Below, in pieces: positions 1-52,763 of a DNA stretch of 64,000 nucleotides (position 1 is the stretch's first letter; each line of letters begins with the position of its first letter). This DNA comes from Streptomyces liangshanensis. GTDB taxonomy: Bacteria > Actinomycetota > Actinomycetes > Streptomycetales > Streptomycetaceae. Where the stretch lies: contig NZ_CP050177.1 in NCBI RefSeq assembly GCF_011694815.1, positions 4,255,001-4,319,000 on the forward strand. Reading direction: 5' to 3'. The notes beneath the pieces were generated by a model. That model did no database searches, had not been told where the DNA came from, and was given only the letters and a program-made list of their open reading frames with translations. The position numbers and the translations under genes are program-made.

Positions 1-1416
<1,416 letters not shown>

Positions 1417-36410: not shown

Positions 36411-36680
36411 GGTCCGGCCCTCTCGGTGAGGCACTTCGCCCAGAGTGCCTCACCGCTCTGACGGCGGACTGACGTGCGCCTGCCGGGGCGGCGCTCCGGC
36501 CCCAGGATCAGTCCGGCGTCAGGAGGGAGTCAGGGCGGGCTGCCACTATCGGATTACCCCAGGCAGAGAAGCGGTCGGCCCCGCATTGGGCCGACGTGCG
36601 ACGGATTTCCGCGAATTCCCGTTCGGCGCCTTGTTCCCGTGTGTCGGAAAGCGCTGGGACCGAACCCCGAAAGGCCACTC

Positions 36681-38405: not shown

Positions 38406-39551
38406 TTGTCCCTGCGGTCTCTCGACCAAGCCCGCGCCGTGTGCGACCGGTACCACCCGGGGCTGCTCAAAGCCCTGGAGGAGATCCCGTACGACGACCG
38501 CGAGAAGCCGGGCGGCACGGCCCTCGACCTGTTCCGCTCCCACGGCGGCCCCGGCCTGCTGATACCGGCCGAGTTCGGCGGCCACGGCGCGAGCCCCCTG
38601 GAAGCCGTACGGGTGCAGGAAGCCCTCGGCGCGGTCTCCCCGTCGCTCGCCGCCGCCACGACCATGCACCACTTCACCGCCGCCATGCTCTACGCACTGG
38701 CCGACCGGCGGAACCGGCTGACACCGGCGCAGGTGGAGCTGCTGCACCGGATCGTGCCCGAGCGGAAGCTGATGGCCTCCGGCTGGGCCGAGGGCCGCAC
38801 CCAGCAGAACATACTCGCGCCGACCGTGGCCGCGCGGCCCGTCGAAGGCGGCTACCGGCTGTCCGGTGCCAAGAAGCCGTGCAGCCTGTCGTCCTCGATG
38901 GATCTGCTGACGGCCAGCATCTCCGTACCGGGCGCCGACGGTACGCCCGAGCTCGCCCTCGCGATCGTGCCGGCCGACTCGGCCGGCCTGACCGTCCACC
39001 CCTTCTGGGGCAGCGACCTGCTCGCCGCCGCCGAGAGCGAAGAGGTGCGCCTGGAGGACGTGTTCGTACCGGAGGAGCTGGTGGTCCGTACCTCCGCCGA
39101 CGACCCGAACCGGCTGGACGACCTCCAGACGGCCGGCTTCATCTGGTTCGTCCTGCTCATCGCGGCCGGATACACCGGAGCGTCGGCCGCCCTCGTGGAA
39201 GAGGTCGTCACGCACGAGCGGGGCAACCCCACCGAGCGCGCGGCCCTCGCCCTCCACCACGAGGCGGCCGTGGCGCTGCTGGAGGGCGCCGCACGCGCCG
39301 TACAGACCGGCGTCGGGGGCGAGGAAGCGGTGGCCGGCGCCCTCGTCGCCCGCTACACCGTGCAGGAGGCGCTGGTCGCCAACGCCAACCGCGCCCTGGA
39401 ACTCCTCGGTGGCATGGACTTCATCAAGGGCTCCCCGCACTTCCGGCTGGCCGCGTCGGTGCGCCCGCTCGCCTTCCACCCGCCGGCCAGGCCCGCGGCC
39501 GCCGAGCCGCTGCTGCGCTACTTCGGCGGCGAGTCGCTTGAACTGGCCTGA
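38406..39551 (+). CDS. acyl-CoA dehydrogenase-fold flavoprotein, probable amine N-hydroxylase (VlmH-like)
   Basis: A 381-residue member of the acyl-CoA dehydrogenase superfamily (helical N-domain, GYRLSGAKKPCS beta-domain around 155-170, C-terminal helical bundle). TTG start at 38406 after GGAGGA. The superfamily includes two-component flavin monooxygenases such as isobutylamine N-hydroxylase VlmH of valanimycin biosynthesis. The flavin reductase encoded at 42058-42648 and the aminotransferase next door make N-hydroxylation of an alkyl amine the best reading. A desaturase of an acyl thioester is the main alternative. Confidence 0.72.
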   Translation: MSLRSLDQARAVCDRYHPGLLKALEEIPYDDREKPGGTALDLFRSHGGPGLLIPAEFGGHGASPLEAVRVQEALGAVSPSLAAATTMHHFTAAMLYALADRRNRLTPAQVELLHRIVPERKLMASGWAEGRTQQNILAPTVAARPVEGGYRLSGAKKPCSLSSSMDLLTASISVPGADGTPELALAIVPADSAGLTVHPFWGSDLLAAAESEEVRLEDVFVPEELVVRTSADDPNRLDDLQTAGFIWFVLLIAAGYTGASAALVEEVVTHERGNPTERAALALHHEAAVALLEGAARAVQTGVGGEEAVAGALVARYTVQEALVANANRALELLGGMDFIKGSPHFRLAASVRPLAFHPPARPAAAEPLLRYFGGESLELA

Positions 39552-39680: not shown

Positions 39681-40997
39681 GTGACCGTGATCCAGGACGC
39701 CCGGCCCGGTACCGGGCCGGCGCGCGGCGCCGGAGCACCGAGCCCGGAGGAGGAGATCCTCCGGCTCTACCGGGCCCACCTCAGCAAGGGCCGGGCGACG
39801 CTCGCCGAGCTGTTCGGCAGCCACATGGAGGTCGAGTCCTCCGGCGCGTGGCTGACCACGAGCGACGGGGAGCGCTTCCTCAACGCGGGCGGGTACGGGG
39901 TGTTCATCATGGGCGCCCGCCACCCCCGCGTGATCGGGGCCGTCGAGCGCCAGTTGCGTACCCACCCCACCGCGTCCCGCATCCTGCTCGAACCGACGGC
40001 CGCCCGCGCCGCCGAGGCACTGGTCTCGGTCATGCCCGAGGGCCTGGACCGGGTGCACTTCGGGTTGTCGGGCTCCGAGGCGGTGGAGACCGGGCTCAAG
40101 CTCGCCCGCGCCAACGGCTTCAAACGCACCGTCTCCATGAGCGGCGGCTACCACGGCAAGACGCTGGGAGCCCTCTCGGCCACCGCCAACAACGTCTACC
40201 AGCAGCCCTTCCGGCCGCTCGTACCCGACTTCCTGAACCTGCCGTTCGGGGACGCGGACGCCCTGGAGGCCGAACTGTCGGCCCACCCCGGCGAGGTCTG
40301 CGTCATCCTCGAACCCGTCCAGGGCGAGGGCGGGGTGATCATCCCGCCCAAGGGTTACCTGAAGCGGGTCGAGGAACTGGTCCGCGCGTACGAGGGGTTC
40401 CTCATCCTCGACGAGATCCAGTCGGGCCTGGGCAGGCTGGGCGAGTGGTGGGGAGCCGACGTCGACGGCGTCGTCCCCGACGTCATGCTGACCGGCAAGG
40501 CCCTGGGCGGCGGCGTACTTCCCGTCTCGGCGGCGGTCGCCACCCGCAAGGCGTTCCGGCCCTTCGACAAGGACCCCTTCCTCCACACCGCGACCTTCTC
40601 CGGACAGCCGCTGCTCATGGCCGCCGTCCAGGCGTCCATCGAGACGATCAAGGAGGAGCGGCTGGTCACCAAGGCCGTGGACCTCGGCGGCACCCTGCTG
40701 CCGAAGCTCACCGAGATCGCCCGCCGCAACATCCCCGACCTCGTGGTGGAGGTGCGCGGCCGCGGCCTGATGATCGGCGTCGAGCTGGTCGAGGCCGGCC
40801 TGGCCGGTGAGCTGCTGATCGAGCTCTTCAACCACGGTGTTGTCGCCAACCACTCCATGAACGGCAGCGCGGTGGTGCGGTTCACCCCGCCCGCCACCCT
40901 GACCGGCGCCGAAGTGCGCTTCCTCCTCGACTCGTTCGACAAGGCGACCCGCGAACTCGTGCGGGGCGCGGCCAAGATGCCGGAAGGCGGTAACTGA
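39681..40997 (+). CDS. class III PLP-dependent aminotransferase
   Basis: A 438-residue fold-type I aminotransferase with the PLP lysine Lys273 (LTGKALGGG) and the pyridine-nitrogen aspartate Asp244 (ILDEIQSGLG). Class III enzymes often act on terminal aldehydes (omega-transaminases). Following an acyl reductase gene, it probably turns a fatty aldehyde into a primary amine. GTG start at 39681 after GGAG. It ends two bases before the SRPBCC gene. Confidence 0.87.
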   Translation: MTVIQDARPGTGPARGAGAPSPEEEILRLYRAHLSKGRATLAELFGSHMEVESSGAWLTTSDGERFLNAGGYGVFIMGARHPRVIGAVERQLRTHPTASRILLEPTAARAAEALVSVMPEGLDRVHFGLSGSEAVETGLKLARANGFKRTVSMSGGYHGKTLGALSATANNVYQQPFRPLVPDFLNLPFGDADALEAELSAHPGEVCVILEPVQGEGGVIIPPKGYLKRVEELVRAYEGFLILDEIQSGLGRLGEWWGADVDGVVPDVMLTGKALGGGVLPVSAAVATRKAFRPFDKDPFLHTATFSGQPLLMAAVQASIETIKEERLVTKAVDLGGTLLPKLTEIARRNIPDLVVEVRGRGLMIGVELVEAGLAGELLIELFNHGVVANHSMNGSAVVRFTPPATLTGAEVRFLLDSFDKATRELVRGAAKMPEGGN

Positions 40998-40999
40998 TC

Positions 41000-41488
41000 G
41001 TGCGGCATGTCGAACTGAAGGCGCTCGTCCCCTCCGAGGACGCGCGGAGCGTCTTCGACGCGGTGATCAAGTGGGAGCGGTATCCCGAGCTGGCTCCGCA
41101 CGTGCACACCACCGTCGTGCACGCCACGCTGCCGGCCGCGGAATGCGGCTCCAGCTGGGAACTGAACTTCCGCAGCGGGCTGCTGCGCTGGACCGAGCGG
41201 GACGAATTCTCGGTCGAGGACCTGACGGCCCGTTTCGAACAGACCGACGGCGACTTCGACAGCTTCACCGGGCTGTGGACGCTACGGCAGGAAGGAGCCG
41301 ACGTCGCCGTCGACTTCGAGGCCGACTTCGACTTCGGCATCCCCAGCCTGCAGGGAATCCTCGATCCGATCGCCGAGCGCGTCATCAAGGAAAGCGTCGC
41401 CTGGGCCGTGACCGGCCTCTACCCGCAGAGTCGGCTGCTCGGCGACGCGAACCTCAGTGACGCCCGTCCGGGAATCGCCGCAGCGTGA
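41000..41488 (+). CDS. SRPBCC (START-like) family protein
   Basis: A 162-residue single-domain protein of the SRPBCC/polyketide cyclase-like superfamily (RHVELKALVPSEDARSVFDAVIKW at the start and a GLWTLRQEG beta strand later). These helix-grip proteins bind hydrophobic ligands; some cyclise polyketides. Here there is no aromatic polyketide system, so a lipid-binding or chaperone-like role in handling the alkyl intermediate is as likely. GTG 41000 lies two bases after the aminotransferase stop. Confidence 0.75.
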   Translation: MRHVELKALVPSEDARSVFDAVIKWERYPELAPHVHTTVVHATLPAAECGSSWELNFRSGLLRWTERDEFSVEDLTARFEQTDGDFDSFTGLWTLRQEGADVAVDFEADFDFGIPSLQGILDPIAERVIKESVAWAVTGLYPQSRLLGDANLSDARPGIAAA

Positions 41489-41515: not shown

Positions 41516-42061
41516 GTGGATCAGGCCAATCCGTTCGAAACCCCCCGTACGTACTCCCTGCACCGAGCCGAGTACCTCGTCGGCCTGGCCGTCACGACCG
41601 GACTGATGATCGCCCACCTGGGCGACATCCGCTGGGTACCGGCCGTCGCGCTGTTCTTGTACATCGACCTCATCGGGTACATCCCCGGCGCCATCGCCTT
41701 CCGGCGCAGCGGCGGCCGCCCGATCTCCAAGGTCTACTACGTGCTCTACAACGTCATGCACAGCCTCATCACGCAGGGCGCGGTCGCGGCCCTGTGGTGC
41801 TGGCTGATCGGGCCGGAGTGGGCGCTGCTGGTGCTGCCCTTCCATCTCTTCGGGGACCGGGGCCTGTTCGGCAACTTCCTGAAGCCCTTCGCGCTGCCCT
41901 TCGAACCGGTACGCCAGCCCGGCTACCTGCGGCTCCTGGACGACCTGGGGGTCAAGCACCCCAAGCCGGTCGGGCACGCGACCGATCCCGTCCCGGTGGG
42001 CCATGTCCCCGCGGCGCGGCCCGGCCCCGCCGAGCGCGCTCAGCGGGAGGCCGTGCGATGA
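41516..42061 (+). CDS. small integral membrane protein of the cluster
   Basis: A 181-residue membrane protein with about four hydrophobic segments (near residues 21-36, 42-60, 82-98 and 101-112) and conserved-looking histidines (NVMHSLI and LPFHLFGDRG). GTG 41516 after AGGAG. The tail is soluble and proline-rich. It sits between the SRPBCC and flavin reductase genes with overlap to the latter. Valanimycin-type clusters contain an integral membrane protein implicated in late steps, but I cannot show homology, so the role is open. Confidence 0.65.
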   Translation: MDQANPFETPRTYSLHRAEYLVGLAVTTGLMIAHLGDIRWVPAVALFLYIDLIGYIPGAIAFRRSGGRPISKVYYVLYNVMHSLITQGAVAALWCWLIGPEWALLVLPFHLFGDRGLFGNFLKPFALPFEPVRQPGYLRLLDDLGVKHPKPVGHATDPVPVGHVPAARPGPAERAQREAVR

Positions 42062-42648
42062 ACACCGCGCTGCGGCCCCGCACCGGGACGACCCGCGGGC
42101 ACCGCACCCCCGACGACCGCCTCCGGCGGCGCCGGGCCCTGTACCACCTGACCTCCCCGGTGGCCGTGCTGACGGTCAGCCACGAAGGGCAGCTGCACGG
42201 CACCACGGTCAGCATGGTGACCACGGTGTCCCGGGAGCCGCTGCTGCTCGGGACCTGCCTCAGGCGCGGGTCGCACTTCGCCGGACTCGCGGCCGCCTCG
42301 GGCCGCTACGTCATCAACGTGCTGACGGCCGACCAGGTCGAGCTGGCCCGGTACTTCGCCGACAGCTCGCGGCCCGAGGGCGGAGCCCAGTTCGCCGGCC
42401 TGGGGTGGGAGACGGGACCGTACGCCCACGCACCCCTGCTGGACGGCGCGCTGGCCCACTACACCTGCCGGCTCGTCGGCTCCCCCGAGGTCGGGGACCA
42501 CGACGTACTGATCGGCTACGTGACGCATGCCGCCGTGGGCGCGGGCGACCCCCTGGTCAGCTACGCCGGCGGACTGTTCACCGGCCCGCTCACCCCTGCC
42601 CGGGACCCCGGGCAGGCCCCTCAGAGCAGCGAGGAGACCGGATCATGA
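42058..42648 (+). CDS. flavin reductase, VlmR/HpaC-like
   Basis: A 196-residue flavin reductase-domain protein (LYHLTSPVAVLTVSHEG, then VSREPLLLGTCLRRGSHFAGL, typical of the FMN-binding split barrel). It would supply reduced flavin to the acyl-CoA dehydrogenase-fold monooxygenase in a two-component system, as VlmR does for VlmH. ATG 42058 overlaps the previous stop by four bases, and its own stop overlaps the diiron gene start, so the three genes are tightly coupled. Confidence 0.85.
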   Translation: MNTALRPRTGTTRGHRTPDDRLRRRRALYHLTSPVAVLTVSHEGQLHGTTVSMVTTVSREPLLLGTCLRRGSHFAGLAAASGRYVINVLTADQVELARYFADSSRPEGGAQFAGLGWETGPYAHAPLLDGALAHYTCRLVGSPEVGDHDVLIGYVTHAAVGAGDPLVSYAGGLFTGPLTPARDPGQAPQSSEETGS

Positions 42649-43631
42649 CCGCGCCTGTGGCGCCCGAGGCCGACTGGGACAAGGCACCCGGTCTGCTCGA
42701 CGGCGCGAAGGAACTCACGCTCGGCCCCGAGGAGTGCGACCTCTCCTACTGGATCACCTCCGTCGCGCAGGGAACCCTGCGGGACCGCGGCGACACCGGC
42801 CACCACGCCGACGCCGTCGTACCGCAGTTCCTCAAGGACCCCGGCCCGCTGCGGGACGCCCTCACCCTGGAGTTCGGCTTCCGGGCCCTGTCCGAAGAGA
42901 TGGCCACCCGCATCCTGGGCCACTACGTGACCCTCGCGCCGGGCATCCCGGAGATGGAGTTCTACGCCACCCAGCTCCTCGACGAGGCCCGGCACGCCCG
43001 GGTCTTCCGCAACCACCTCGTCGAACTGGGACACCCGGCCGACAGCCTGCTGCGGGACATCGACGAGATGGCCGCCGACTACCGGCGCCGCGTGCTGGAG
43101 CCGGTGAAGGAGTTCACCGACGAGATCGTCACGAAGCAGGCCGACTTCATCGGCGGCGTCGCCGTCTTCGCCATCGTCATCGAGGGCGTACTCGCGCCCG
43201 CCGCCGAGCTGAGCGAGCGCAAGTGGACCCCGCTCTCGCCCGCCACCGGGGAGATCTCCCGCGGCACCGCCATCGACGAGATCCGGCACCTGACCGTGGC
43301 CAGCACCATCCTGCGCGACCACGTCGCCGAACACCCCGACTCCAAGCCGAGGCTGCTGGAGATCCTCCGGCGCGGCGTCCGGCTCTGGGACGAACTCCCC
43401 GACCGCGAGTACGTCCTGCCCCGCGAGGAGATGTTCCAGAAGGGCATGTACGAGCACGCCGACAAGATCGGCGACTACGAGTTGTGGCCCGGGGTGCGGA
43501 TGCTCGACACCACCCCCGAGCAGCGCTACGCCATGGCCGAGCAGTGGACCGACGAGATGGCCGAGGTGCGCATGGCCTACATGGGCCTCCCCGTCGAGGT
43601 GCTGGCCGGCGGCCAGGAGAGCACCGGATGA
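42645..43631 (+). CDS. ferritin-like diiron oxygenase
   Basis: A 328-residue helical protein with two diiron ligand motifs: Glu114-A-R-His117 (DEARHARVF) and Glu212-I-R-His215 (DEIRHLTVA). Further candidate ligands are Glu84/85 and Glu180 on adjacent helices, so a complete four-helix diiron site is plausible. Relatives oxidise amines or form N-O and N-N bonds. In this cluster it is the best candidate for azoxy bond formation or further N-oxidation. ATG 42645 overlaps the flavin reductase stop, and its stop overlaps the KSIII start. Confidence 0.8.
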   Translation: MTAPVAPEADWDKAPGLLDGAKELTLGPEECDLSYWITSVAQGTLRDRGDTGHHADAVVPQFLKDPGPLRDALTLEFGFRALSEEMATRILGHYVTLAPGIPEMEFYATQLLDEARHARVFRNHLVELGHPADSLLRDIDEMAADYRRRVLEPVKEFTDEIVTKQADFIGGVAVFAIVIEGVLAPAAELSERKWTPLSPATGEISRGTAIDEIRHLTVASTILRDHVAEHPDSKPRLLEILRRGVRLWDELPDREYVLPREEMFQKGMYEHADKIGDYELWPGVRMLDTTPEQRYAMAEQWTDEMAEVRMAYMGLPVEVLAGGQESTG

Positions 43632-44662
43632 GCACGGAGCCCGGCGGGAAGCGGGCTCCCGTGACGAGGGCCGCCGTGATAGCGGGCATCGGGTCGTACG
43701 TACCACCCGGTGTGGTGACCAACGACGACCTGACGGCCCGGCTGGACACCTCGGACGAGTGGATCCGCAGCCGCACCGGAATCGCCACGCGCCACGTGGT
43801 CTCCCCCGGCACGGCCACCTCCGACCTCGCCGTCGAGGCCGGGCAGCGGGCCATGAAATCGGCCGGCAGCGCGGACATCGACGCGGTGGTGCTCGTCACC
43901 ACCACGCCGGACCACCTGTGCCCGGCCACCGCCCCGGCCGTGGCCGCCCGGCTCGGTCTGACCGGCGTACCGGCCTTCGACGTGGCCGCCGTGTGCACCG
44001 GCTTCCTCTACGGCCTGGCGACCGCGTCCGGGCTGATCGCGGCGGGCATCGCGGAGCGCGTGCTGCTCGTCGCGGCCGACGCGTTCACCACCCTCATCGA
44101 CCCCGACGACCGCACCACCGCCGTGATCTTCGCGGACGGGGCGGGCGCGGTGGTGCTGCGCGCCGGGGAGCCGGGCGAACCGGGCGCGGTGGGACCCCTG
44201 GTCCTGGGCAGTGACGGCGCCCTCGCCCACCTCATCGAGGTGCCGGCCGGCGGCTCGCGGCAGCGCTCCTCGGGCCGCGTCGCACCCCCGGAGGACCACT
44301 TCTTCCGGATGCGGGGCCGCGACACGTACCGTCACGCCGTGGAGCGCATGACCGCCGCCTCGGCGGAGGCGGTCCGGCGCCGCGGCTGGCGGCTCCCCGA
44401 CATCGATCGGCTTGCCGCGCACCAGGCGAACGCCCGCATCCTCACCGCGGTCGCGGACCGGTTGGAGATCCCGGCCGGACGCCGGCTGTCCAACATCGAG
44501 AGCGTCGGCAACACCGGCGGCGCCTCGATCCCGCTGCTGCTGTCCCAGGCGGCGCGGGACGGCCGGCTGACCGGCGGACAGAAAGTGCTGCTCACCGCGT
44601 TCGGCGGCGGGCTGACCTGGGGCGCGACCGCCCTCACCTGGCCGGACCTCACCCCGTCCTGA
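43628..44662 (+). CDS. beta-ketoacyl-ACP synthase III (FabH-like)
   Basis: A 344-residue KSIII with an intact catalytic triad: Cys123 (VCTGFLYG), His265 (AAHQANARI) and Asn295 (VGNTGGASIP). It would start chain assembly by condensing an acyl-CoA starter with malonyl-ACP. ATG 43628 overlaps the diiron stop. It is one of three chain-building genes in the cluster. Malonyl loading and keto processing would have to be supplied by primary fatty acid synthesis, because no acyltransferase or ketoreductase is encoded here. Confidence 0.92.
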   Translation: MSTEPGGKRAPVTRAAVIAGIGSYVPPGVVTNDDLTARLDTSDEWIRSRTGIATRHVVSPGTATSDLAVEAGQRAMKSAGSADIDAVVLVTTTPDHLCPATAPAVAARLGLTGVPAFDVAAVCTGFLYGLATASGLIAAGIAERVLLVAADAFTTLIDPDDRTTAVIFADGAGAVVLRAGEPGEPGAVGPLVLGSDGALAHLIEVPAGGSRQRSSGRVAPPEDHFFRMRGRDTYRHAVERMTAASAEAVRRRGWRLPDIDRLAAHQANARILTAVADRLEIPAGRRLSNIESVGNTGGASIPLLLSQAARDGRLTGGQKVLLTAFGGGLTWGATALTWPDLTPS

Positions 44663-44762: not shown

Positions 44763-44993
44763 ATGTTCGAGCAATTCAAGAGCCTCCTCGTCGACAAGCT
44801 GAAGGTCGCGCCCGACCTGATCACGCCCGAGGCCACCCGGGAGGACATCGAACTCGACTCCCTCGACGTCGTGGAGCTGTCCCTGATGCTCAACTCCGAG
44901 CTGGGCCTCACCATCAGCGACGACGAACTGCTGGAGGCGGCCACCGTCGGCGACATGGTGGCGCTCATGGAGGAGCGAGGCGCGAAGATCTGA
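44763..44993 (+). CDS. acyl carrier protein
   Basis: A 76-residue acidic four-helix protein with the phosphopantetheine site DSLD (Ser33). It carries the growing acyl chain for the neighbouring KSIII and KSII and is the likely donor for the reductase encoded at 36681. ATG 44763 follows GAAAGG. Its stop and the KSII start share one base (TGATG), so the two are coupled. The 100-base gap before it has no gene. Confidence 0.95.
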   Translation: MFEQFKSLLVDKLKVAPDLITPEATREDIELDSLDVVELSLMLNSELGLTISDDELLEAATVGDMVALMEERGAKI

Positions 44994-46213
44994 TGGCCGG
45001 TATCGATGTCGCCGTCACCGGGGTCGGTATGGTCACGCCCGGTGGCGTGGGGGTGGTGCCCACCTGGGCAGCCGTCCGTTCGGGGCGTTCCCCGGCCGCC
45101 TTCGACCCCGTGCTGGAGTCGAATCCGGTACGGATCTCCTGCCGGGTCCCCGGGTTCGACCCGGATGCCCTGCTGGGCGCCCGGCGCGCACTGCGCCTCG
45201 ACCGTTTTGTGCAGTTCGCTCTGGTTGCCGCGCGCGAGGCGCTGGCCGACGCCGGGCTGGACACGAAGACCTGGGACGGGGCCCGCGTCGGCGTCGTGCT
45301 GGGCAACGGTGACGGGGGGCCCGAAACCGTGGAGGCCCAGCACCGGGTCATGCTCCGGGACGGCCCCGGCCGGGTGTCGTCGCTGCTGCTGCCCATGCAG
45401 CTCCCCAACATGCTCGCCGGCCAGGCGGCCATCGAGTTCGGGGCCACCGGCCCCAACCTCGTGGTGTCGACGGCGTGCGCCTCCGGTACGACCGCCATCG
45501 GCGTCGCCCGCGATCTCCTGGCCCTCGACCGCTGCGACGTGGTCCTGACCGGCGGGAGCGAGGCGCTGATCACGCCGCTGGCGATGGCCGGGTTCGCCCA
45601 GATGGGCGCCCTTTCCCGGCGCGAGGACGACCCCGCGGCCGCCTCGCGTCCCTTCGACGCGGACCGGGACGGATTTGTCGCCGGCGAGGGCGCCGGCATC
45701 CTGATCCTCGAACGGCTCCGGGACGCCCGCGCCCGCGGGGCCCGGGTCCGGGGGCGGATCGTGGGGTACGGGGCCTCGGCCGACGCCCACCACATGACCT
45801 CGCCCCATCCGACGGGCGCCGGGATCGAGTCGGCCGTGCGGGCCGCCCTCGCCGACGCGGGCGCCGGCCCGGGCGACGTGCAGCACGTCAACGCGCACGG
45901 TACGTCCACGCCCCTCAACGACCTGGCGGAGGCGAGGATGCTGAAGCGGACGCTCACCGGCGATCCGCTCGTCACCTCCACCAAGGGCGTGACGGGACAC
46001 CTGCTGGGCGCGGCGGGTGCGGTGGAGGCCATCCTCACGGTGCTGTCGGTGGACCAGGCACTGGTACCGCCCACGGCCAACCTGACCCACCCGGATCCCG
46101 GCATCGACATCAAGATCGCCGTTTCGGAGACGTCCATGCCGATCGATCTGGCCCTCAGCAACTCCTCGGGCTTCGGAGGACAGAACGCGGTACTGGCGAT
46201 CGCCGCCGCCTGA
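44993..46213 (+). CDS. beta-ketoacyl-ACP synthase II (FabF-like)
   Basis: A 406-residue KS of the FabB/F type. The catalytic residues are Cys162 (STACASGT), His302 (NAHGTST) and His336 (KGVTGHLLGAAG), so it is an active elongating KS and not a chain-length factor. It elongates the chain on the dedicated ACP. It is the last gene of the plus-strand biosynthetic operon and is followed by a terminator hairpin shared with the convergent SARP gene. Confidence 0.94.
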   Translation: MAGIDVAVTGVGMVTPGGVGVVPTWAAVRSGRSPAAFDPVLESNPVRISCRVPGFDPDALLGARRALRLDRFVQFALVAAREALADAGLDTKTWDGARVGVVLGNGDGGPETVEAQHRVMLRDGPGRVSSLLLPMQLPNMLAGQAAIEFGATGPNLVVSTACASGTTAIGVARDLLALDRCDVVLTGGSEALITPLAMAGFAQMGALSRREDDPAAASRPFDADRDGFVAGEGAGILILERLRDARARGARVRGRIVGYGASADAHHMTSPHPTGAGIESAVRAALADAGAGPGDVQHVNAHGTSTPLNDLAEARMLKRTLTGDPLVTSTKGVTGHLLGAAGAVEAILTVLSVDQALVPPTANLTHPDPGIDIKIAVSETSMPIDLALSNSSGFGGQNAVLAIAAA

Positions 46214-46307: not shown

Positions 46308-47123
46308 TCAGGGTCTTCGGGCGCCGGTCAGGTCGGACTCGAGCCGGCCGCGGCCGCTTCCCAGGGAGAGGGCCGGGTCGTGGGACAGGATCGCGCGCTC
46401 CACGCGGCGCAACGAGGGAGAGGGCTGTACACCGATCTCCTCGGAAAGGTGCTGCCACATGCGGCGGTACGTGTCCAAGGCGTCGGCCTGGCGCCCGGAC
46501 CGGTAGAGCGCGAGCATGAGTTGCTCACAGAACCGTTCCCGCAGCGGGTTGCTGATGTGCGTCTCGTGGAGTTCCGCGAGGATGCGCGAGTGGTGTCCCG
46601 CGTCGAGTTCGGCATCGAACAGGAGCTCCCGCGCGCGCAACCTGTGCTCCTCGAAACGAGCGCCGGCGAGCCGGCACACGGTGCCACCCGGGAGCTGACC
46701 GAAGACGGGCCCGCGCCACATGGCCAGCGCGGACCGCAGCAGGTCCGCCGCCTCGGCCGGGTGAGTGAGCATCGCCATCTCGGCCTGCTGGACCTTGCGG
46801 AAGAACTGGGCCGCGTCGAGCTCGTCGTCCTCCACCGCCAGCCGGTAGCCCGAGGGATGGATCGTCAGGCGGGATAAAGAGCGTTCGGGCTCCAGGGCTC
46901 TCAGCCGGCGGCGTAGTCGACTGACGTGTGCCTGAAGTGCGTTGGTCTGGTTGTCGGGGGCCGAATCCCCCCACATCTCATTGATCAGAACTTCCCCACC
47001 GACGGCCTGCCGTTCACTGATGAGCAGCACCTGGACAAGAGTCCGCTGCAGGTCGCCGGGTATTTCTACTTGGCCTGCCTCCGTATAGATCTCTAGCGCT
47101 CCGAGAATCGAAAAGCTAAGCAC
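46308..47123 (-). CDS. SARP-family transcriptional activator
   Basis: A 271-residue Streptomyces antibiotic regulatory protein: an OmpR-type winged helix (residues 1-95, with ALQAHVSRLRRRL recognition helix) followed by a bacterial transcriptional activation domain (about 100-245). It is the likely pathway-specific activator of the cluster, as SARPs bind direct heptamer repeats upstream of target genes. It contains a rare TTA leucine codon (46875-46877), making its translation dependent on bldA tRNA. ATG at 47123. Confidence 0.92.
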   Translation of the reverse strand: MLSFSILGALEIYTEAGQVEIPGDLQRTLVQVLLISERQAVGGEVLINEMWGDSAPDNQTNALQAHVSRLRRRLRALEPERSLSRLTIHPSGYRLAVEDDELDAAQFFRKVQQAEMAMLTHPAEAADLLRSALAMWRGPVFGQLPGGTVCRLAGARFEEHRLRARELLFDAELDAGHHSRILAELHETHISNPLRERFCEQLMLALYRSGRQADALDTYRRMWQHLSEEIGVQPSPSLRRVERAILSHDPALSLGSGRGRLESDLTGARRP

Positions 47124-47769
47124 ATCGTGCTCCCTTGCCGTTTGAGGTGTGGTAAGGAATACGGACGTGATCTTGCCTTCAGGATCGATGGCGTGGAGAT
47201 GCGGAGCGGACCGTCACAAATGTTTCGGCCTGCAGAATACCCAATCCCCGATTTTTTCATCGATATGGTCAGTATCGATGTGAACGCCGCATCAGTTGCG
47301 GCGCGGTCCGACGTGGCGTTGCACGTGGATCTTGCCATACTATCATTCGCGCGGGAAGGTCATATTTGTGCTGTGGGCATCGAAGTAACCCGTGCCGCGC
47401 ACGTGCCGGCGCAATGTCTCGTGGGTCGATATCTGGACTGGCCGAAAGCTTTCGCCCGGTCGCGGGCATGCGCTCACGCAATCAGTACCGCTGGGACCGG
47501 GTGTGCGCGCCGGCTGGGGACAGCGGCCGCGGCCAGGGTCGCATTGAGGTGAGTTATGGGGTCATTCTGATCGTTCGTGTGCAGATGGCGCAATCCGCAC
47601 CGAATCCGGAAGGCCCTCAATCATTCAAGATCGCGGCGGCGTGCGATCCGTCAGTGATTTGCGTGGACAGAACATCCAGATCACCCGAGGTGCACCGAAC
47701 CGTTCCGCCGGACCTGTCCCTCGGGCGGGCCGAACCTGAGCCCGGTCGGCGCGTGAAGCGCGAATTTGC
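47124..47769. other. regulatory intergenic region between SARP and tRNA-like gene A
   Basis: About 650 bases with lower G+C than the surroundings, especially 47220-47400. It holds the SARP promoter and an operator-like palindrome. A plus-strand frame (47127-47552) has no ribosome site or domain, so I do not call it a gene. Confidence 0.55.
47258..47280. promoter_or_regulatory. operator-like inverted repeat upstream of SARP gene
   Basis: CATCGATA and its exact complement TATCGATG separated by TGGTCAG, preceded by a run of six T. It is about 135-157 bases upstream of the SARP start. The 8-7-8 layout suits a dimeric repressor such as a TetR-type autoregulator, but no such regulator is encoded nearby. 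Confidence 0.55.
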
Positions 47770-47862
47770 GGAGAGGGCAGGATTCGAACCTGCGCGGATC
47801 CATAAGACCCGACCGTCGAGCCGAAGCTCAGGTCCCCGATAAGCCGCTCCGGGCACCTCTCC
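47770..47862 (-). tRNA. tRNA-Ser-like RNA A without anticodon loop
   Basis: Read on the minus strand this 93-base sequence has a full 7-bp acceptor stem (GGAGAGG/CCTCTCC), U8, a 4-bp D stem (CCCG/CGGG) with GG in the loop, a 5-bp variable arm (GGGTC/GATCC), a 5-bp T stem with loop TTCGAAT, and G73, the serine discriminator. No CCA is encoded. The anticodon arm is replaced by GACC-T-GAGC-TTCG-GCTC-GAC-GGTC, an extended hairpin with a UUCG tetraloop and no seven-base anticodon loop, so it cannot decode. SerRS recognises the variable arm and not the anticodon, so charging with serine is plausible. A decayed tRNA is the alternative. Confidence 0.75.
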
Positions 47863-47971
47863 AGAACCAGTACCAGAACCGGATCCGGTTTCGTTTTCGG
47901 TCCGGACCGTTCATGAGAACAACGATGACACGTACCTCTGATGCGATCCTGACGTAGGCCTGACGTGCCTC
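47863..47971 (-). promoter_or_regulatory. upstream module of tRNA-like gene A
   Basis: On the minus strand, GAGGCACGTCAGG (47971-47959) begins a 65-base block ending TGAACGG that aligns without gaps to the block upstream of tRNA-like gene B. Conserved sub-blocks are positions 1-13, CAGG at 21-24, TCAG at 31-34, GGT at 36-38 and TGAACGG at 59-65. The shared spacing suggests a promoter or activator site. It also lies within the upstream region of the divergent DUF2156 gene. Confidence 0.6.
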
Positions 47972-48055
47972 CGACATCCCCGCGTTCCCCCCTTCCGGTG
48001 TTCCGTCGTTCGGTGCTCTACTTTCCTCGTTCATTCTTCGGAGAAGGAGGACCAC

Positions 48056-49051
48056 GTGTCCGCGACCGAAACAGACAGTCTGGTTCTCCGGGCCGTCCAG
48101 AGATACACCCACGCCGAGAACCCCAGTTCTTTCCTCGCCCTGAACGAGGGAAACACCATATTCAGCGTCTCGGATATCGACGGGGTGATCTCCTATCGCC
48201 GGGCCGGCCGCTACGCCGTTCAGTTCGGCGGCCCCTTCGTCGACCCGGCCTCCTACGACGCACTGCTCGAACGCTTCGTCGCCCACGTACACGAAGAGGG
48301 CCTCGGCCTCGTCGGCGTACAGCTCCAGCGCGACGACGCCGAGGCGTACGCCCGTCGCGGCTTCACGGTCAACCAGATCGGCGCCTCCTGGGCCGTGCGC
48401 ATCCCCGAACTCACCCTGCGCGGCACCCGCTTCATGCAACTGCGCAACAAGATCTCCCGGGCGCACCGCAACGGCCTCGAGATCCAGGAGGTGCCGGCCT
48501 CGGAGTGGCAGGACGGCCTGACCGCGATCGATCGCGCCTGGCTCGGGTCCAAGGGCGAGGGCGCCCGGCCCCTGGAGTTCCTGGTGGGCCAGATCGGTGG
48601 TGAGATGCAGCCGCTCCGCCGCCTCTTCGTCGGCACCATCGGAGGCGCGCCGGTGGCGTACATCTCGTACTCTCCCGTGTTCGGTTCGCGCTCCGGCTGG
48701 ATGCACGACCTGAGCCGCCGGATCCCGGACGGTTCCCCCGGCCTCATGGAAGCCATCAACGCGCACGCCATCGAGGTCTTCCGCGCGGAGAAGGTGGAGT
48801 GGCTGCACTTCGGCTTCACGCCCTTCACGGGCCTGGACGCCGGCCATGAAGTCCCCGGCCACAGTCCCGCCTTCCAGTGGCTGATGGCGTTCCTGTGGGC
48901 CGAGGGCGCCGCGCTCTACCCCGCGCGGACCCAGCTGGCCTACAAGCAGAAGTGGGCCGCGGACGTCGTCATCCCCGAGTACGTCGCCTTCGAGGGCCAC
49001 GCCGATCTCGCCGGCTTCGCCCACATCTTCCGGGCCAGCAACGCCTTCTGA
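48056..49051 (+). CDS. DUF2156 (MprF C-terminal-like) aminoacyl-tRNA-dependent transferase, VlmA-like
   Basis: A 331-residue soluble protein matching the catalytic half of phosphatidylglycerol lysyltransferases: two GNAT-like folds with LRNKISRAHRNGL (129-141), WLGSKG (162-167), LHFGFTPF (250-257) and YKQKWAADVVIPEY (296-309). It has no membrane segments, unlike MprF. The family moves an aminoacyl group from tRNA to an acceptor. VlmA of valanimycin biosynthesis, which I recall as related, moves serine from seryl-tRNA to an alkyl hydroxylamine. GTG 48056 after GGAGG. The neighbouring serine-type tRNA-like genes fit this role. Confidence 0.8.
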   Translation: MSATETDSLVLRAVQRYTHAENPSSFLALNEGNTIFSVSDIDGVISYRRAGRYAVQFGGPFVDPASYDALLERFVAHVHEEGLGLVGVQLQRDDAEAYARRGFTVNQIGASWAVRIPELTLRGTRFMQLRNKISRAHRNGLEIQEVPASEWQDGLTAIDRAWLGSKGEGARPLEFLVGQIGGEMQPLRRLFVGTIGGAPVAYISYSPVFGSRSGWMHDLSRRIPDGSPGLMEAINAHAIEVFRAEKVEWLHFGFTPFTGLDAGHEVPGHSPAFQWLMAFLWAEGAALYPARTQLAYKQKWAADVVIPEYVAFEGHADLAGFAHIFRASNAF

Positions 49052-49107
49052 CCCGCGGCCGCGCGAACGGTGCCCCTCCCACGTCACCATCCCGAGGAAG
49101 GAAGACC

Positions 49108-49269
49108 ATGCCCGACGATTCCCGGACCACGGACGAGCTGCGCCACTTGATGGTCGAGCAGCTGATGCGCGTCATGGGGCTCCCCGACGACGAGTCGGTG
49201 GCCCACGAGGCCGACCGGGTCCTCCTGGCCCTGGACGACCGGCTGCGCGAGGACACGGCAGCGGCCTGA
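49108..49269 (+). CDS. 53-residue acidic protein of the cluster
   Basis: A small frame starting at ATG 49108 with GAGGAAGGAAG upstream, encoding an acidic, helical peptide (MPDDSRTTDELRHLMVEQLMRVMGL then DDESVAHEADRVLLALDDRLRE in two parts). It has no membrane segment or cysteine. The spacing, ribosome site and position between the DUF2156 and desaturase genes support it as real. It might be a partner subunit of either enzyme; function unknown. Confidence 0.6.
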   Translation: MPDDSRTTDELRHLMVEQLMRVMGLPDDESVAHEADRVLLALDDRLREDTAAA

Positions 49270-49506
49270 CCTCCGCTGTCCCCGACCGGGTCAGCCCAGC
49301 ATCAGGATCGCGTCAGCGCGGTAGGCAAGGCTGGGGCGCACATGAGCTCGCGGAGCGCGCGGCCCACCGCATTCCCGCGGTACGAGCGCGGGCAAGGTCG
49401 CGACGACCATGCGGTTTCCCTTGCCGTCGTCGCGCAGCCTCCTGATCCTGGGCGGCTGCCGAATCAACGCCTCACCACCAGGCGTACAAGCCCAAGGAGT
49501 CACCGT

Positions 49507-50622
49507 ATGTCGTCGTCGTACGTCCCCCACCAGAACGACCTACCCGAATCACAAGGCACGCGCCGGTCGTCCCCGGCCGAACGGAACGCGGGCGCCTCCG
49601 CGACGTTCTCCGACCTTCTGAAGCGCGTGAAGGCCGAAGGCCTGATGGACTTCGACCCGCGCTACTACGTGGGCCGGCTCACGGTCAACGCCCTGCTCCT
49701 CGCCGCGGGTTTCACGGCGTTCTTCCTCCTGGGCGACTCCTGGTGGCAGTTACTCGTCGCCGCGTGGATGGGGCTGTGCGGGACACAGTGCGCGTACATG
49801 TTCCACGACGCCGGCCACAAGGCGATGTTCCGCGACAAGCGGGTGGCCACGGTCATCGGATACGTCCACGCCAACCTGATCAACGGGGCGAGTTACGGCT
49901 GGTGGGTCAACCACCACAACCGCCATCACAGCAACCCGAACCATCTGGACATGGACCCGGACATCGGGCGTCGGACCGCGATCTTCGACATCAAGCAGTA
50001 CGCCGCCCGCCGCGGCGTCGCGCGGTTCATCGTGCGCTACCAGAGTGTGCTGTTCTTCGTGCTGCTGGTGCTGGAATCGCTCAAGATGAGCAAGACGGCC
50101 GTGAAGGCGATCGCGGGGGGCCAGACCAAGCGTCCGCTGCTGGAGGCCACGCTCATCCTGCTCCGCGCGGTGATCTACCTGACCCTGTTGTTCACCGTGC
50201 TCTCCCCGCTGCTCGCCGTCACCTTCCTCGTCGTCCAGCAGTTCGTCCAGGGCCTCTACTTCGGCATGATCTTCGCCCCCAACCACAAGGGCATGGAGGT
50301 CCGTGACGGCGAGGCCGAGAGCCTGGACTGGCTGGAGCGGCAGGTCCTGACCTCCCGCAACATCCGGCCGTCGTGGATCGTCGACTTCATGTACGGCGGT
50401 CTCAACTACCAGGTGGAGCACCACCTTTTCCCGTCCATGCCGCAGAAGAACCTGCCCCGTGCCCGGGAACTGACGCGTGAGTACTGCGCGGAGCACGGCG
50501 TGCCGTACCACGAGGTCGGTTTCTGGGCCTCGTACCGGGAGGTCGCCGGCTTCCTGCACAAGGTGAGCGCGCCGGTACGCCGGGGCGAGGCCGAGTTGGC
50601 CGTGCAGCGCCGCGCGGGCTGA
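49507..50622 (+). CDS. membrane fatty acid desaturase
   Basis: A 371-residue integral membrane diiron desaturase with the three histidine boxes HDAGH (100-104), HHNRHH (136-141) and QVEHH (302-306); the final QxxHH type is seen in front-end and acyl-lipid desaturases. Four or so membrane helices lie between them. It probably introduces the double bond of the alkyl chain. ATG 49507 follows AAGGAG. A rare TTA codon (49750-49752) makes translation bldA-dependent. The 237 bases before it hold no gene. Confidence 0.9.
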   Translation: MSSSYVPHQNDLPESQGTRRSSPAERNAGASATFSDLLKRVKAEGLMDFDPRYYVGRLTVNALLLAAGFTAFFLLGDSWWQLLVAAWMGLCGTQCAYMFHDAGHKAMFRDKRVATVIGYVHANLINGASYGWWVNHHNRHHSNPNHLDMDPDIGRRTAIFDIKQYAARRGVARFIVRYQSVLFFVLLVLESLKMSKTAVKAIAGGQTKRPLLEATLILLRAVIYLTLLFTVLSPLLAVTFLVVQQFVQGLYFGMIFAPNHKGMEVRDGEAESLDWLERQVLTSRNIRPSWIVDFMYGGLNYQVEHHLFPSMPQKNLPRARELTREYCAEHGVPYHEVGFWASYREVAGFLHKVSAPVRRGEAELAVQRRAG

Positions 50623-50695
50623 GACCGGCATCCGTGAGGCCTTCCGGCCGGCGGCATCGAAACGAAGATCAGCGAAATCGACCAACGAAAGGGAA

Positions 50696-51124
50696 ATGAC
50701 CATGCCCTCGGCCCAGTACGCCGGATCGGCCGCGTCAGTTCGGAACAGCGGCTCCGAGAGTGTCGTCCGCCTCGCGCTCAAGGCGGACGTGATCCTCACC
50801 GGTGCCAACGGCATCGGCTACCTCGCGCTCGCCACCGTGCTCGACAGCGTCCTCGGGGTCTCGACCTCGGCCCAGCTCCCCATCGGTGCGTTCCTGACCG
50901 TCTACGCGCTGGGCGTGCTGTTCGTCACGACCCGGAGGACGATCAGCAAGCCCGCGGTGGTGGCGATCATCGTGCTGAACCTGTTGTGGACGGTGGTCAG
51001 TGTGGTGGTCGCCGTGACCGGGGTGTTCTCGCCGACCGGCATCGGTACGTTCTGGACCGTCGCGCAGGGTCTGGTGGTCGGCGCGATCGCCGTCTTCCAG
51101 TACGTCGGGCTGAAACGAATGTGA
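50696..51124 (+). CDS. small four-helix membrane protein
   Basis: A 142-residue protein with four predicted membrane helices (roughly residues 33-53, 60-78, 87-107 and 118-137) and a short soluble N-terminus. ATG 50696 follows GAAAGGG. It resembles SPW/DUF-type small membrane proteins without known function. Position between the desaturase and methyltransferase genes suggests a role in product handling, export or desaturase electron supply, but nothing in the sequence decides this. Confidence 0.65.
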   Translation: MTMPSAQYAGSAASVRNSGSESVVRLALKADVILTGANGIGYLALATVLDSVLGVSTSAQLPIGAFLTVYALGVLFVTTRRTISKPAVVAIIVLNLLWTVVSVVVAVTGVFSPTGIGTFWTVAQGLVVGAIAVFQYVGLKRM

Positions 51125-51134
51125 CCGGGCGGGG

Positions 51135-51156
51135 GCGGGCGCGCCGACGCGCCCGC
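51135..51156. terminator. hairpin between membrane protein and methyltransferase genes
   Basis: A perfect 9-bp GC-rich hairpin (GCGGGCGCG, loop CCGA) ten bases after the membrane protein stop and without a T-run. It may reduce readthrough into the methyltransferase gene or stabilise the upstream mRNA. Confidence 0.5.
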
Positions 51157-51223
51157 GCCACCGACGGCCACGGCCACCGCCGGCGTAACCGCCGACTCTT
51201 GATTCTGGAGACGAGGAGCTGCC

Positions 51224-52336
51224 ATGTCAGATCTGGGCCAGTCCGCTTTACCGGGGCTATCCGCCGCCGAGGTTTCCGCGGTCTATGACCTGCTTCTGCG
51301 CTTTCCGGGAGTGGCTCGCGCCCAGTTGGTCCGGAGCGATTCAGGACACCTCGAGGCCCGGGTCCTGGGATGGGACCGAATGGAAGATCCCCCCACGGGC
51401 GGGCCGCTCTGCCAACTCGCCCAGATCAACCCGCACGAGACGCGTTTCCTGCACGACGAGATCTTCGGCGCCGAGTCCTATCTGCAAGGAGGCATCATCC
51501 TCCGCGAGGATTCCGTCGTCTTCGACGTGGGCGCCAATATCGGCATGTTCAGCCTGTTCGTCGGCGCGCGCTGCCCGTCGGCCGAGGTCTTCGCCTTCGA
51601 GCCGGTCGCCGACGTCTTCGACCCGCTGCGGCGCAACCTGGAACAGCACGGCGTCTCGGCCCGGGTGTTCCACCTGGGTCTGTCCGACGTCGACCAGGAC
51701 ATCACGTTCAACTTCTACCCCGGCATCTCGATCATGTCGTGCCAGAGCGACTACGCCGACCTGGAGAACGAGGTCGGCCTGATCAAGAGGTACGTCGAGA
51801 ATGCCCGGGAGAACGGCCCCTCCGGCCGGGACGCCCACCTGGCTGAGGTCGAGAGCCTGGTGTCCGAGCGCTTCGAGCTGACCGAGCGCCGATGCACCCT
51901 GCGTCGTTTCTCCACGGTGATCGACGAGTCCGCGGTGTCGCGTGTGGACCTGCTCAAGATCGACGTCCAGCGGGCCGAACTCGACGTTCTCCACGGCATC
52001 GACGACCGGCACTGGCCGCTGGTGCAGCAGATCAGCATGGAAGTGCACGACGAGGAGGGCACCCCGACCGAGGGGCGGGTGCGGCAGGTCCGGAGTCTGC
52101 TGTCCGGACAGGGCTTTCGCGTCGCGGTGGCCGAGGAGGACCTGCTGAAGGGCACCGGCCGGTACGCCGTGCAGGCGGTCCGGCCCGAGTACGCGAACGA
52201 CCCGCGCCCCGTGGCCGCCGCCGCGGGATCCGGCCGGCGGCTGGACGCGGGACCGGTGCGTGACTGGCTGGCCGAGTGGCTGCCGGAGCACCAGGTGCCG
52301 CACCGCGTCGTCGTGGTCGACTCGCTCGCTCCGTGA
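51224..52336 (+). CDS. FkbM-family methyltransferase flanked by adenylation-domain remnants
   Basis: A 370-residue protein with a SAM-binding core starting DVGANIG (101-107) and FkbM-type motifs (VDLLKIDVQRAELDVLHGI). Residues 11-47 (AAEVSAVYDLLLRFPGVARAQLVR) and 345-370 (RDWLAEWLPEHQVPHRVVVVDSL) look like the two halves of an NRPS adenylation C-terminal subdomain, as if the enzyme came from a methylation domain embedded between A8 and A10. It probably O-methylates a carboxylate or hydroxyl late in the pathway; azodyrecin biosynthesis uses a methyltransferase for its methyl ester. TTA codon at 51248-51250. ATG at 51224. Confidence 0.82.
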   Translation: MSDLGQSALPGLSAAEVSAVYDLLLRFPGVARAQLVRSDSGHLEARVLGWDRMEDPPTGGPLCQLAQINPHETRFLHDEIFGAESYLQGGIILREDSVVFDVGANIGMFSLFVGARCPSAEVFAFEPVADVFDPLRRNLEQHGVSARVFHLGLSDVDQDITFNFYPGISIMSCQSDYADLENEVGLIKRYVENARENGPSGRDAHLAEVESLVSERFELTERRCTLRRFSTVIDESAVSRVDLLKIDVQRAELDVLHGIDDRHWPLVQQISMEVHDEEGTPTEGRVRQVRSLLSGQGFRVAVAEEDLLKGTGRYAVQAVRPEYANDPRPVAAAAGSGRRLDAGPVRDWLAEWLPEHQVPHRVVVVDSLAP

Positions 52337-52380
52337 ACTGACCTCCGCGGCAAGCACATCAGCCGGAGACGGAGGAGCGG

Positions 52381-52409
52381 GCGGGGCACGGCCGACGGCC
52401 GTGCCCCGC
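52381..52409 (+). terminator. terminator after methyltransferase gene
   Basis: A perfect 13-bp hairpin (GCGGGGCACGGCC, loop GAC) 44 bases after the methyltransferase stop. It marks the end of the plus-strand part of the cluster. Confidence 0.8.
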
Positions 52410-52500
52410 CAGGCGCGAGAAAGGCGTACGGCACGGCACGGCGATCTCGGTGATCATCGGAATCTCCGGCATTACGCCATGAGAAGCAGCATCGAAAAGG

Positions 52501-52532
52501 GCTGACACCGCGCCCTCAGGCTCGGTGTCAGC
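52501..52532 (-). terminator. intrinsic terminator of tRNA-like gene B
   Basis: A perfect 10-bp hairpin (GCTGACACCG and its complement, 12-base loop). On the minus strand it is followed directly by CCCTTTTCG, a short T-run, and lies 51 bases past the 3' end of tRNA-like gene B. It fits an intrinsic terminator of that RNA. Confidence 0.65.
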
Positions 52533-52556
52533 TCAATACCCAGGCTCAATACCCAG
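52531..52556. repeat. tandem 13-base repeat
   Basis: GCTCAATACCCAG occurs twice in tandem between tRNA-like gene B and its terminator. It may be a slippage product or a protein or RNA-processing site. Confidence 0.6.
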
Positions 52557-52582
52557 GATATCCGTGGGATTCACGCGGAGGC

Positions 52583-52674
52583 GGAGAGGGCAGGATTCGA
52601 ACCTGCGTAGGCCGGTGAGGGCCTGATATGGGCGTGAGCCCCGATCCCCGATAAACCACTCCGGGCACCTCTCC
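52583..52674 (-). tRNA. tRNA-Ser-like RNA B without anticodon loop
   Basis: This 92-base minus-strand sequence is the sibling of tRNA-like gene A. The first 30 bases differ at two positions and the last 25 are identical, giving the same acceptor stem, D arm, T arm and G73. The variable arm has a different 5-bp stem (AGGCC/GGCCT). The anticodon region is GAT-CG-GGGC-TCAC-GCCC-AT-ATC, again an outer stem, an internal loop and a 4-bp helix with a tetraloop, with no seven-base loop. It has an upstream module shared with A and a terminator. It is likely a non-decoding serine-type RNA for the nearby DUF2156 transferase. Confidence 0.75.
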
Positions 52675-52763
52675 CTGTTCCCGTCCCGGTTTCCCGTTCC
52701 GTTCACAAGGAAGATACTGCCAGACACCGCTGACATTCCCCTGATGGCTTCCTGACGTGCCTC
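52675..52763 (-). promoter_or_regulatory. upstream module of tRNA-like gene B
   Basis: GAGGCACGTCAGG (52763-52751, minus strand) starts a 65-base block ending TGAACGG whose sub-blocks match those upstream of tRNA-like gene A at the same spacing. The gap from the block to the RNA is 24 bases here against 44 for A. It probably contains the promoter; I do not assign -35 and -10 elements with confidence. Confidence 0.6.

Follow-up and report, generated by a model that had tools for sequence, protein, structure and literature searches.

Serine-type tRNA-like RNAs with a replaced anticodon arm accompany VlmA-like transferase genes in Streptomyces liangshanensis and other Actinobacteria

In the valanimycin pathway serine is moved by VlmA from seryl-tRNA onto isobutylhydroxylamine (relevant passages of PMC11705231 and PMC12945691), and how Ser-tRNA is diverted there from translation, and which elements of tRNA-Ser are read by VlmA and VlmL, are stated to be unknown in the passages of PMC4052509 that deal with them. 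The same question is raised by a stretch of 64,000 nucleotides of the Streptomyces liangshanensis genome (contig NZ_CP050177.1, positions 4,255,001 to 4,319,000; the whole stretch is called the window here), in which a VlmA-like transferase gene stands between two RNA genes that resemble serine tRNA genes in all but the anticodon arm: are these RNAs seryl donors set apart from translation, or something else? We put at about 0.78 the probability that they belong to a conserved, non-decoding serine-type tRNA-like family, likely to be charged with serine and predicted to act as donors to the VlmA-like transferase and not to the ribosome. If so, the family would offer related azoxy clusters a direct and testable answer, a separate tRNA that is unable to decode.

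The two RNAs of the window

RNA1 lies at 47769..47862 on the minus strand and RNA2, a second copy, at 52582..52674 on the same strand; both had been noticed in a first-pass annotation of this DNA, although with ends one base short, so that G73 was excluded. In both sequences, 93-94 nt long, the acceptor, D, long variable and T arms are those of a serine-type tRNA and the discriminator is G73, as had been claimed for them: the acceptor stem is of 7 bp (GGAGAGG/CCUCUCC), the D stem of 4 bp with a loop of 11 bases, and the T arm is GCAGG-UUCGAAU-CCUGC. CCA is absent from the gene sequence of either, and there is no 7-base anticodon loop. Instead, RNA1 is predicted to form an outer stem GACC/GGUC and a UUCG-capped hairpin (GAGC-UUCG-GCUC), and RNA2 an outer stem GAU/AUC and a UCAC-capped hairpin (GGGC-UCAC-GCCC), each followed by the long variable arm, which agrees with the earlier description of an outer stem of 3-4 bp and a 4-bp helix with a UUCG or UCAC tetraloop. 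The RNA thus has the architecture and identity features of serine tRNA, but no anticodon loop in its predicted fold.

A covariance model, R1, built from 48 of the 93 family instances described below, gave RNA1 95.0 bits (E-value 1.6e-17) and RNA2 91.4 bits (E-value 9.2e-17), both being among the 48 sequences from which it was built; with scores of this size the two are not chance resemblances. ARAGORN misses or mislabels these genes: RNA1 was called as tRNA-Ser(GCT), with the “anticodon” taken from the hairpin, and RNA2 was missed. In Rfam neither RNA reached the gathering score of any model, tRNA included, the nearest being tRNA-Sec (RF01852) with 26.6 bits for RNA1 and 32.0 bits for RNA2 (cut-off 47). 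No third copy was found in the host genome (7.7 Mb, a single contig). Thirteen long tRNA genes of the host were fetched, five of them serine tRNA genes (GCU twice, UGA, CGA and GGA), and their acceptor stems all differ from those of RNA1 and RNA2, which are therefore not recent copies of the host tRNA-Ser.

Conservation of the fold and the replaced arm

The 80 best VlmA-like loci, one genome per species, were scanned with a loose tRNA pattern in which the letters of the acceptor and T stems were left free. This returned 97 lines, of which 93 proved to be one and the same RNA; it occurs in the window and in 60 loci, with 1 to 5 copies in each, and often lies on the strand opposite to the transferase gene, at a distance of a few hundred bases upstream. 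Alignment A3 holds 48 of the 93 instances, hand-chosen and mostly one per locus, and alignment A4 holds all 94 model hits in 83 hand-chosen sources, fitted to the model and comprising 86 distinct rows. Standard pairs fill 98.6% of the pair cells in A3, with double changes in 11 pairs, and 98.0% for the distinct rows of A4, with double changes in 10. Shuffled alignments fell below the observed values except for 2 of 500 on one A4 measure (kinship being ignored), and slid versions of the alignments fell below them throughout. U8, A14, G15, G18, A21, C48, U54, U55, C56, A58 and G73 are present in all 86 distinct rows and G19 in 85. The acceptor, D and T arms are near-invariant across genera, the D stem being of 4 bp with an 11-base loop in most members, and five copies (L254, L256, L258, L262 and L266) have the compensatory acceptor pair A7-U66 for G7-C66.

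The arm at the anticodon position is hypervariable in length and sequence, yet it is paired and carries compensatory changes. Two middle hairpins were present in all 124 distinct RNAs that could be parsed (of 126). The loop of the first hairpin has 3-5 nt in 113 of them; six have a loop of 6 nt, one of 7 and four of 8. A standard anticodon arm, with 5-bp stem, 7-base loop and U33, is arithmetically possible in only 5 of the 124. The suggestion that the ends are conserved while the middle differs but keeps its architecture, as if under selection, was borne out in these 48 and 86 relatives, and such a pattern of conservation is the opposite of what decay or decoding would leave. Some part in translation, through suppression or frameshifting by unusual tRNAs, might be read into the anticodons of two to four bases that ARAGORN gives to some family members, but these anticodons differ between loci, many copies are left uncalled, and with so few RNAs that could form a decoding arm we regard it as very improbable. 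A reading as dead tRNA relics, or as integration-site scars that travel with the cluster, is in our view extremely improbable: two copies are low-scoring and degenerate-looking (L261, 63.3 bits, and L264, 71.2 bits), but the compensatory changes, the scant variation of the acceptor, D and T arms from genus to genus and the promoter repeats kept amid unrelated flanks (see below) speak against it. The decayed arms and broken acceptor and T stems that the first-pass annotation had named as the mark of relics were not seen, the pair cells holding at the percentages given above.

Each known RNA family tested has a defining feature that this RNA lacks, and we know of no class of tRNA gene whose decoding arm is replaced and which is dedicated to a small molecule; precedents do exist for parts of the scheme, in seryl-tRNA-dependent transfer and in non-proteinogenic tRNAs, and on a cautious view the RNA could be an extreme variant of the latter. 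Canonical tRNA-Ser has the 7-bp acceptor stem, the D, long variable and T arms, G73 and the bases of the tertiary contacts in common with the family, but it has a 5-bp anticodon stem and a 7-base loop with a serine anticodon, which the family does not. tRNA-Sec is likewise serine-charged (for the family charging is predicted), with a long variable arm and G73, but its D stem is of 6 bp with a 4-base loop (relevant passage of PMC7609411) against 4 bp and 11 bases in most family members. An identity with tRNA-Sec was rejected, as the scores fall below the RF01852 cut-off and neither its D arm nor its UCA anticodon loop is matched. tmRNA is also tRNA-like and without an anticodon, and is charged with alanine (as outlined in PMC3985003); it differs in that amino acid, in its mRNA-like part and in its activity on the ribosome, and it too was rejected, since ARAGORN found none in the window and RNAs of this length hold no tag-encoding domain. 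The non-proteinogenic tRNA-Gly of Staphylococcus aureus is believed to be reserved for aminoacyl transfer outside the ribosome and has the T-stem pair A51-U63 in common with the family, but it belongs to a cell wall pathway, carries glycine and has changes at G18-G19 and A49-U65 that the azoxy family lacks, and replacement of the anticodon arm is not part of its description in the passages of PMC4052509 that deal with it.

In searches of open-access literature, judged by titles and abstract openings with subscription journals and preprints lying outside, no paper listed describes such RNAs in azoxy or other clusters, and in a review of natural non-canonical tRNAs (PMC7609411) the words “Streptomyces”, “biosynthetic” and “actinobacteria” do not occur. 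If the donor role is right, these would be tRNA genes purely for metabolism that are kept by selection, and the RNA would be a marker for seryl-tRNA-dependent clusters and a possible source of natural pairs of seryl-tRNA synthetase (SerRS) and tRNA for engineering.

Co-occurrence with VlmA-like genes

R1 matched within 10 kb of the VlmA-like (DUF2156) gene in 62 of the 80 loci, so that the structure-aware search which had been proposed for serine-type RNAs with aberrant arms beside DUF2156 genes did find them. The 18 loci without a local copy were at one point considered as losses, but this reading was rejected because most of the genomes hold copies elsewhere: 15 have strong copies, some of which lie on the contig of the locus but outside the 10-kb flank, and G007 has a copy cut by a contig end. 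A genome-wide search with R1 found no copy in G017 or in G001, where a contig end lies 183 bp from the start of the vlmA-like gene. Carriers include species of Kitasatospora, Actinomadura, Actinokineospora, Sphaerisporangium, Rhizocola, Allorhizocola and Actinosynnema. VlmA-like genes were also found on plasmids, in 22 of 72,556 records, five of them at 60-80% identity (e.g. NZ_CP108456.1).

Across a genus sample of 392 genomes the RNA was found in 51, a VlmA-like gene (E<=1e-40) in 80 and both in 49. A VlmA-like gene was therefore present in 49 of the 51 RNA-positive genomes compared to 31 of the 341 RNA-negative ones (Fisher p=1.8e-38, with kinship ignored and with the two genomes that enter only at a relaxed threshold counted as negatives). 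The other two RNA-positive genomes (loci L232 and L233) have a relative at 35-36% identity to the query at most 2.5 kb from the RNA, which in L232 is a DUF2156 protein by Pfam. These counts show that the RNA tracks the VlmA-like gene across genomes. A phylum sample of 396 genomes held true family members in 2, both with a VlmA-like gene; 7 further genomes gave weak matches of 61-66 bits, and the one examined in each was an ordinary tRNA-Ser gene by ARAGORN, for which reason R1 scores below about 70 bits were not trusted alone. At L246 (2079-2173), in another actinobacterium, ARAGORN called a tRNA-like gene with a two-base anticodon near ordinary tRNA-Ser genes.

In L232 the DUF2156 gene is at 12336-13280 and the RNA at 9956-10047, and in L233 they are near 12406 and at 9989-10081 respectively. 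Besides the DUF2156-type protein both loci encode an aminotransferase and a SARP, but their 20-kb stretches gave no match of VlmO or VlmB type (Pfam covering L232 only), so they are possibly another seryl-tRNA-dependent pathway and would suit the view that the RNA serves second-SerRS or SARP pathways generally, with the VlmA-like enzyme as one of several users. As a DUF2156-type relative is present in all 51 RNA-positive genomes of the genus sample, we hold this broader service to be quite unlikely.

Within the genus sample 66 of 146 copies are no more than 35 kb from a VlmA-like gene, and such copies occur in 43 of the 51 genomes; these copy numbers are lower bounds, as scoring was confined to 10 first-look candidates per genome. 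The highest count per genome was in S. griseofuscus (G008, L274-L288), with 15 scattered copies over two contigs, a 16th match of 49.1 bits which scores like an ordinary tRNA being left out. Two pairs of copies in this genome are identical and mirrored at both chromosome ends, and one copy is on the second contig. Around scattered copies, at 18 of 30 loci and within 1.5 kb, no widely recurrent protein was seen among the matches listed (near-identical strains and RNA read as protein aside), and no protein of the window cluster was matched among them. Scattering away from the cluster could suit a regulator, and the RNAs might then be tRNA mimics, charged or uncharged, sensing the state of serine or SerRS, or decoys tuning the cluster, and not donors. 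The Bacillus cereus tRNA-Other, a pseudo-tRNA and likewise a tRNA-like gene outside translation, does act in regulation, but it keeps a Trp anticodon, is poorly aminoacylated and lies within a longer regulatory RNA (passages on it in PMC3399842). In the present family, however, the arm usable for base-pairing is the hypervariable part and the invariant part is the one that SerRS, processing enzymes and a transferase would contact, and the high copy number fits a supply RNA, so that a regulatory role appears unlikely and supply to the transferase is preferred.

In a tree of the transferases with 101 rows, one branch (support 99) holds 84, all but five of them labelled RNA-positive (L043 was labelled RNA-negative though its genome has a copy cut by a contig end, L146); the distant, RNA-positive L232 and L233 lie outside this branch. 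Among the 31 RNA-negative genomes that have a VlmA-like gene, 18 stand at 50-57% identity, aligning from residue 18, and 10 at 39-45%, the rest being G091, G104 and G355. Ten loci of the eighteen were fetched, together with both VlmA-like genes of G104. An LCM methyltransferase gene, identified by Pfam (PF04072) in L222 and by homology in the others, was present in nine of the fetched loci (8 of the 10 and that of the second G104 gene), which form one tree branch (support 92). LCM genes mark azodyrecin clusters, for which the proposed donor is alanyl-tRNA (relevant passages of PMC9379638). Neither the family RNA nor a second SerRS was found in these nine azodyrecin-like loci, and no other tRNA-like RNA was found by ARAGORN in the nine or by Rfam in the seven scanned. 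The contrast between RNA-bearing serine-type clusters and RNA-less alanine-type clusters is incomplete and no more than suggestive, because the amino acid of the RNA-less loci L229-L231, L234, L237 and L238 is not known and because L238, on another tree branch, also has an LCM gene. At L234, in an RNA-less branch, a predicted tRNA-Pro(cgg) gene (14684-14766), which R1 does not match, lies about 5 kb from the VlmA-like gene.

Several observations weigh against a dedicated donor. Two genomes in the RNA-bearing VlmA branch, G104 and G017 (which is the same as G355), show no RNA, so canonical tRNA-Ser may suffice; G001, with its gene at a contig end, and G091, in 1140 contigs, allow no verdict on RNA presence. 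In 8 of the 51 RNA-positive genomes no copy lies within 35 kb of a VlmA-like gene on the same contig. VlmA itself works with seryl-tRNA (Garg et al., as told in a passage of PMC12945691), and the enzyme may therefore accept either RNA. Lastly, the window genome has one SerRS and no in-cluster copy was found, so the housekeeping SerRS must charge the RNAs here, if charging occurs.

Predicted charging, promoter repeats and the surrounding cluster

Serine identity is independent of the anticodon and lies mainly in the variable arm (relevant passage of PMC9976931). The T-stem pair A51-U63 is present in 48 of 48 rows of A3 and 85 of 86 of A4, whereas G51-C63 is the pair in all ten canonical tRNA-Ser genes read, five from the host and five from elsewhere (L243 and L245 being left out); the pattern behind the canonical comparison fixes part of the acceptor and T stems, and the invariance figures are those of A3 and A4. 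A51-U63 is a weak pair for EF-Tu in the S. aureus non-proteinogenic tRNA-Gly (passage in PMC4052509). Position 49 is G in 86 of 86 rows, and because this position and G18-G19 are ordinary, avoidance of EF-Tu is a lead only. In the fetched stretches 37 of the 80 loci hold a second SerRS with 35-45% identity to the housekeeping enzyme. L003, the closest relative of the window cluster, has one, and this protein clears the serS cut-off of NCBI. As a query it gave 41 matches, four of them partial at a stretch edge; among those of full length, identity to it is mostly 68-81%, with 53-57% in L076, L077, L079 and L080.

RTCAG repeats spaced by 11 bp lie upstream of RNA1 (47938..47964, minus strand, also in the divergent vlmA-like promoter region), upstream of RNA2 (52730..52756, minus strand), about 190 bp upstream of the desaturase gene (49290..49316, plus strand) and at the left end of the cluster (36458..36533, both strands), and all nine RTCAG-N6-RTCAG matches in the window (0.34 expected) are in these four places. 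The upstreams of 149 family RNAs were thinned to 110 at 70% ungapped identity, with some relatedness remaining, and 74 of these have GTCAG pairs at exactly 11 or 22 bp, compared to a mean of 0.08 and a maximum of 2 after shuffling; such pairs were in none of 30 canonical tRNA upstreams of the window genome (which has 67 tRNA genes). The scattered copies kept the repeats in 19 of 19 parsed upstreams (from 20 loci fetched), 15 of them in S. griseofuscus and four of five in Kitasatospora mediocidica, although the flanks of the S. griseofuscus copies are only about 30% identical, near chance. Six loci (L020, L023, L032, L036, L051 and L064) have GTCAG repeats upstream of the vlmA-like gene with the RNA missing there and copies elsewhere in the genome. 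SARPs bind direct repeats spaced 11 bp, and the window cluster has both such repeats upstream and a SARP-family gene of its own (46308..47123, minus strand, BTAD and Trans_reg_C domains); judged by sequence, the repeats are likely SARP boxes.

Put together, the cluster SARP would switch on RNA and enzyme genes jointly through the shared repeats, RNase P and the CCA-adding enzyme would mature the RNA, and SerRS would charge it, this being the housekeeping enzyme in the window genome and perhaps the second, in-cluster SerRS in relatives. The VlmA-like enzyme would then move serine onto an alkyl-hydroxylamine, giving a seryl ester which VlmO/VlmB-type enzymes would turn into the azoxy group, and the altered arm, perhaps with A51-U63, would keep the seryl pool from the ribosome and EF-Tu. 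Whether Actinobacteria hold more generally a private non-translational circuit, in which 1 to 15 SARP-controlled anticodon-free tRNA-Ser genes, often with a second SerRS of their own, feed a DUF2156 transferase apart from the ribosome, we regard as an even bet. If true, synthetase and tRNA would form a naturally orthogonal pair with no part in decoding, the anticodon constraint being gone and the lost arm drifting while staying paired.

The cluster spans about 36.4 to 52.7 kb of the window, with the genes named here on the plus strand. It begins with an aldehyde dehydrogenase-family protein (36474..38366, start uncertain, PF00171), a candidate VlmH-like flavin N-hydroxylase of acyl-CoA dehydrogenase fold (38439..39551, PF02771, 47% identical to its L222 counterpart), a class III aminotransferase (39681..40997, PF00202) and a polyketide cyclase/START-like protein (41000..41488, PF03364). 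These are followed by a candidate VlmO-like membrane protein (41516..42061, no Pfam match, 64% identical to an S. atratus protein which itself has a sub-threshold match to DUF4260), a VlmR-like flavin reductase (42058..42648, PF01613), an AurF-like diiron protein that is a VlmB-like candidate (42612..43631, weak PF11583 match of 25.8 bits against a cut-off of 29.6), and ketoacyl-ACP synthase III-like (43643..44662, PF08541 and PF08545) and ketosynthase II-like (44993..46213, PF00109 and PF02801) proteins. The VlmA-like transferase (48056..49051; LPG_synthase_C, DUF2156, PF09924, 213.8 bits against a cut-off of 27.5) is of the family of VlmA, a known user of seryl-tRNA, which upholds the earlier view that this neighbour is of a type that takes aminoacyl groups from tRNA. 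The two RNAs do flank it as had been said, but not it alone: genes for a fatty acid desaturase (49507..50622, PF00487), a 140-aa protein (50702..51124, no Pfam match, matched by tblastn in 18 of the 80 loci) and an FkbM methyltransferase (51224..52336, PF05050, TIGR01444) also lie between them.

VlmA-, VlmH-, VlmR-, VlmB- and VlmO-like genes are thus together in one cluster, the VlmB- and VlmO-like calls resting on sub-threshold Pfam matches; the Vlm labels follow the families named in the relevant passages of PMC9379638 and homology to S. atratus and L222 proteins, not a direct comparison with Vlm proteins. The likeness to the valanimycin VlmA/VlmL pathway lies in the DUF2156 transferase, the flavin hydroxylase and reductase and the VlmO- and VlmB-like proteins, in the second SerRS of relatives of the window cluster, which recalls VlmL (passages of PMC9379638 on that pathway), and in the SARP, as the valanimycin regulator VlmI is also called one in the title of a cited paper. 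The difference is that a dedicated tRNA is not among the features given for valanimycin in the passages describing the pathway, by which alone the two were compared. In S. atratus JCM 3386 (L069) all 12 window proteins tested were matched inside one 21-kb stretch, and elaiomycins with ElaO are listed from S. atratus (in a passage of PMC11705231), so that the window cluster is predicted to make an elaiomycin-like azoxy compound. A 54-aa open frame without Pfam or NCBIfam match lies at 49107-49269, between the transferase and desaturase genes, and the left edge of the window (1-1616) holds the end of a ribosomal RNA operon, with a 23S fragment and 5S.

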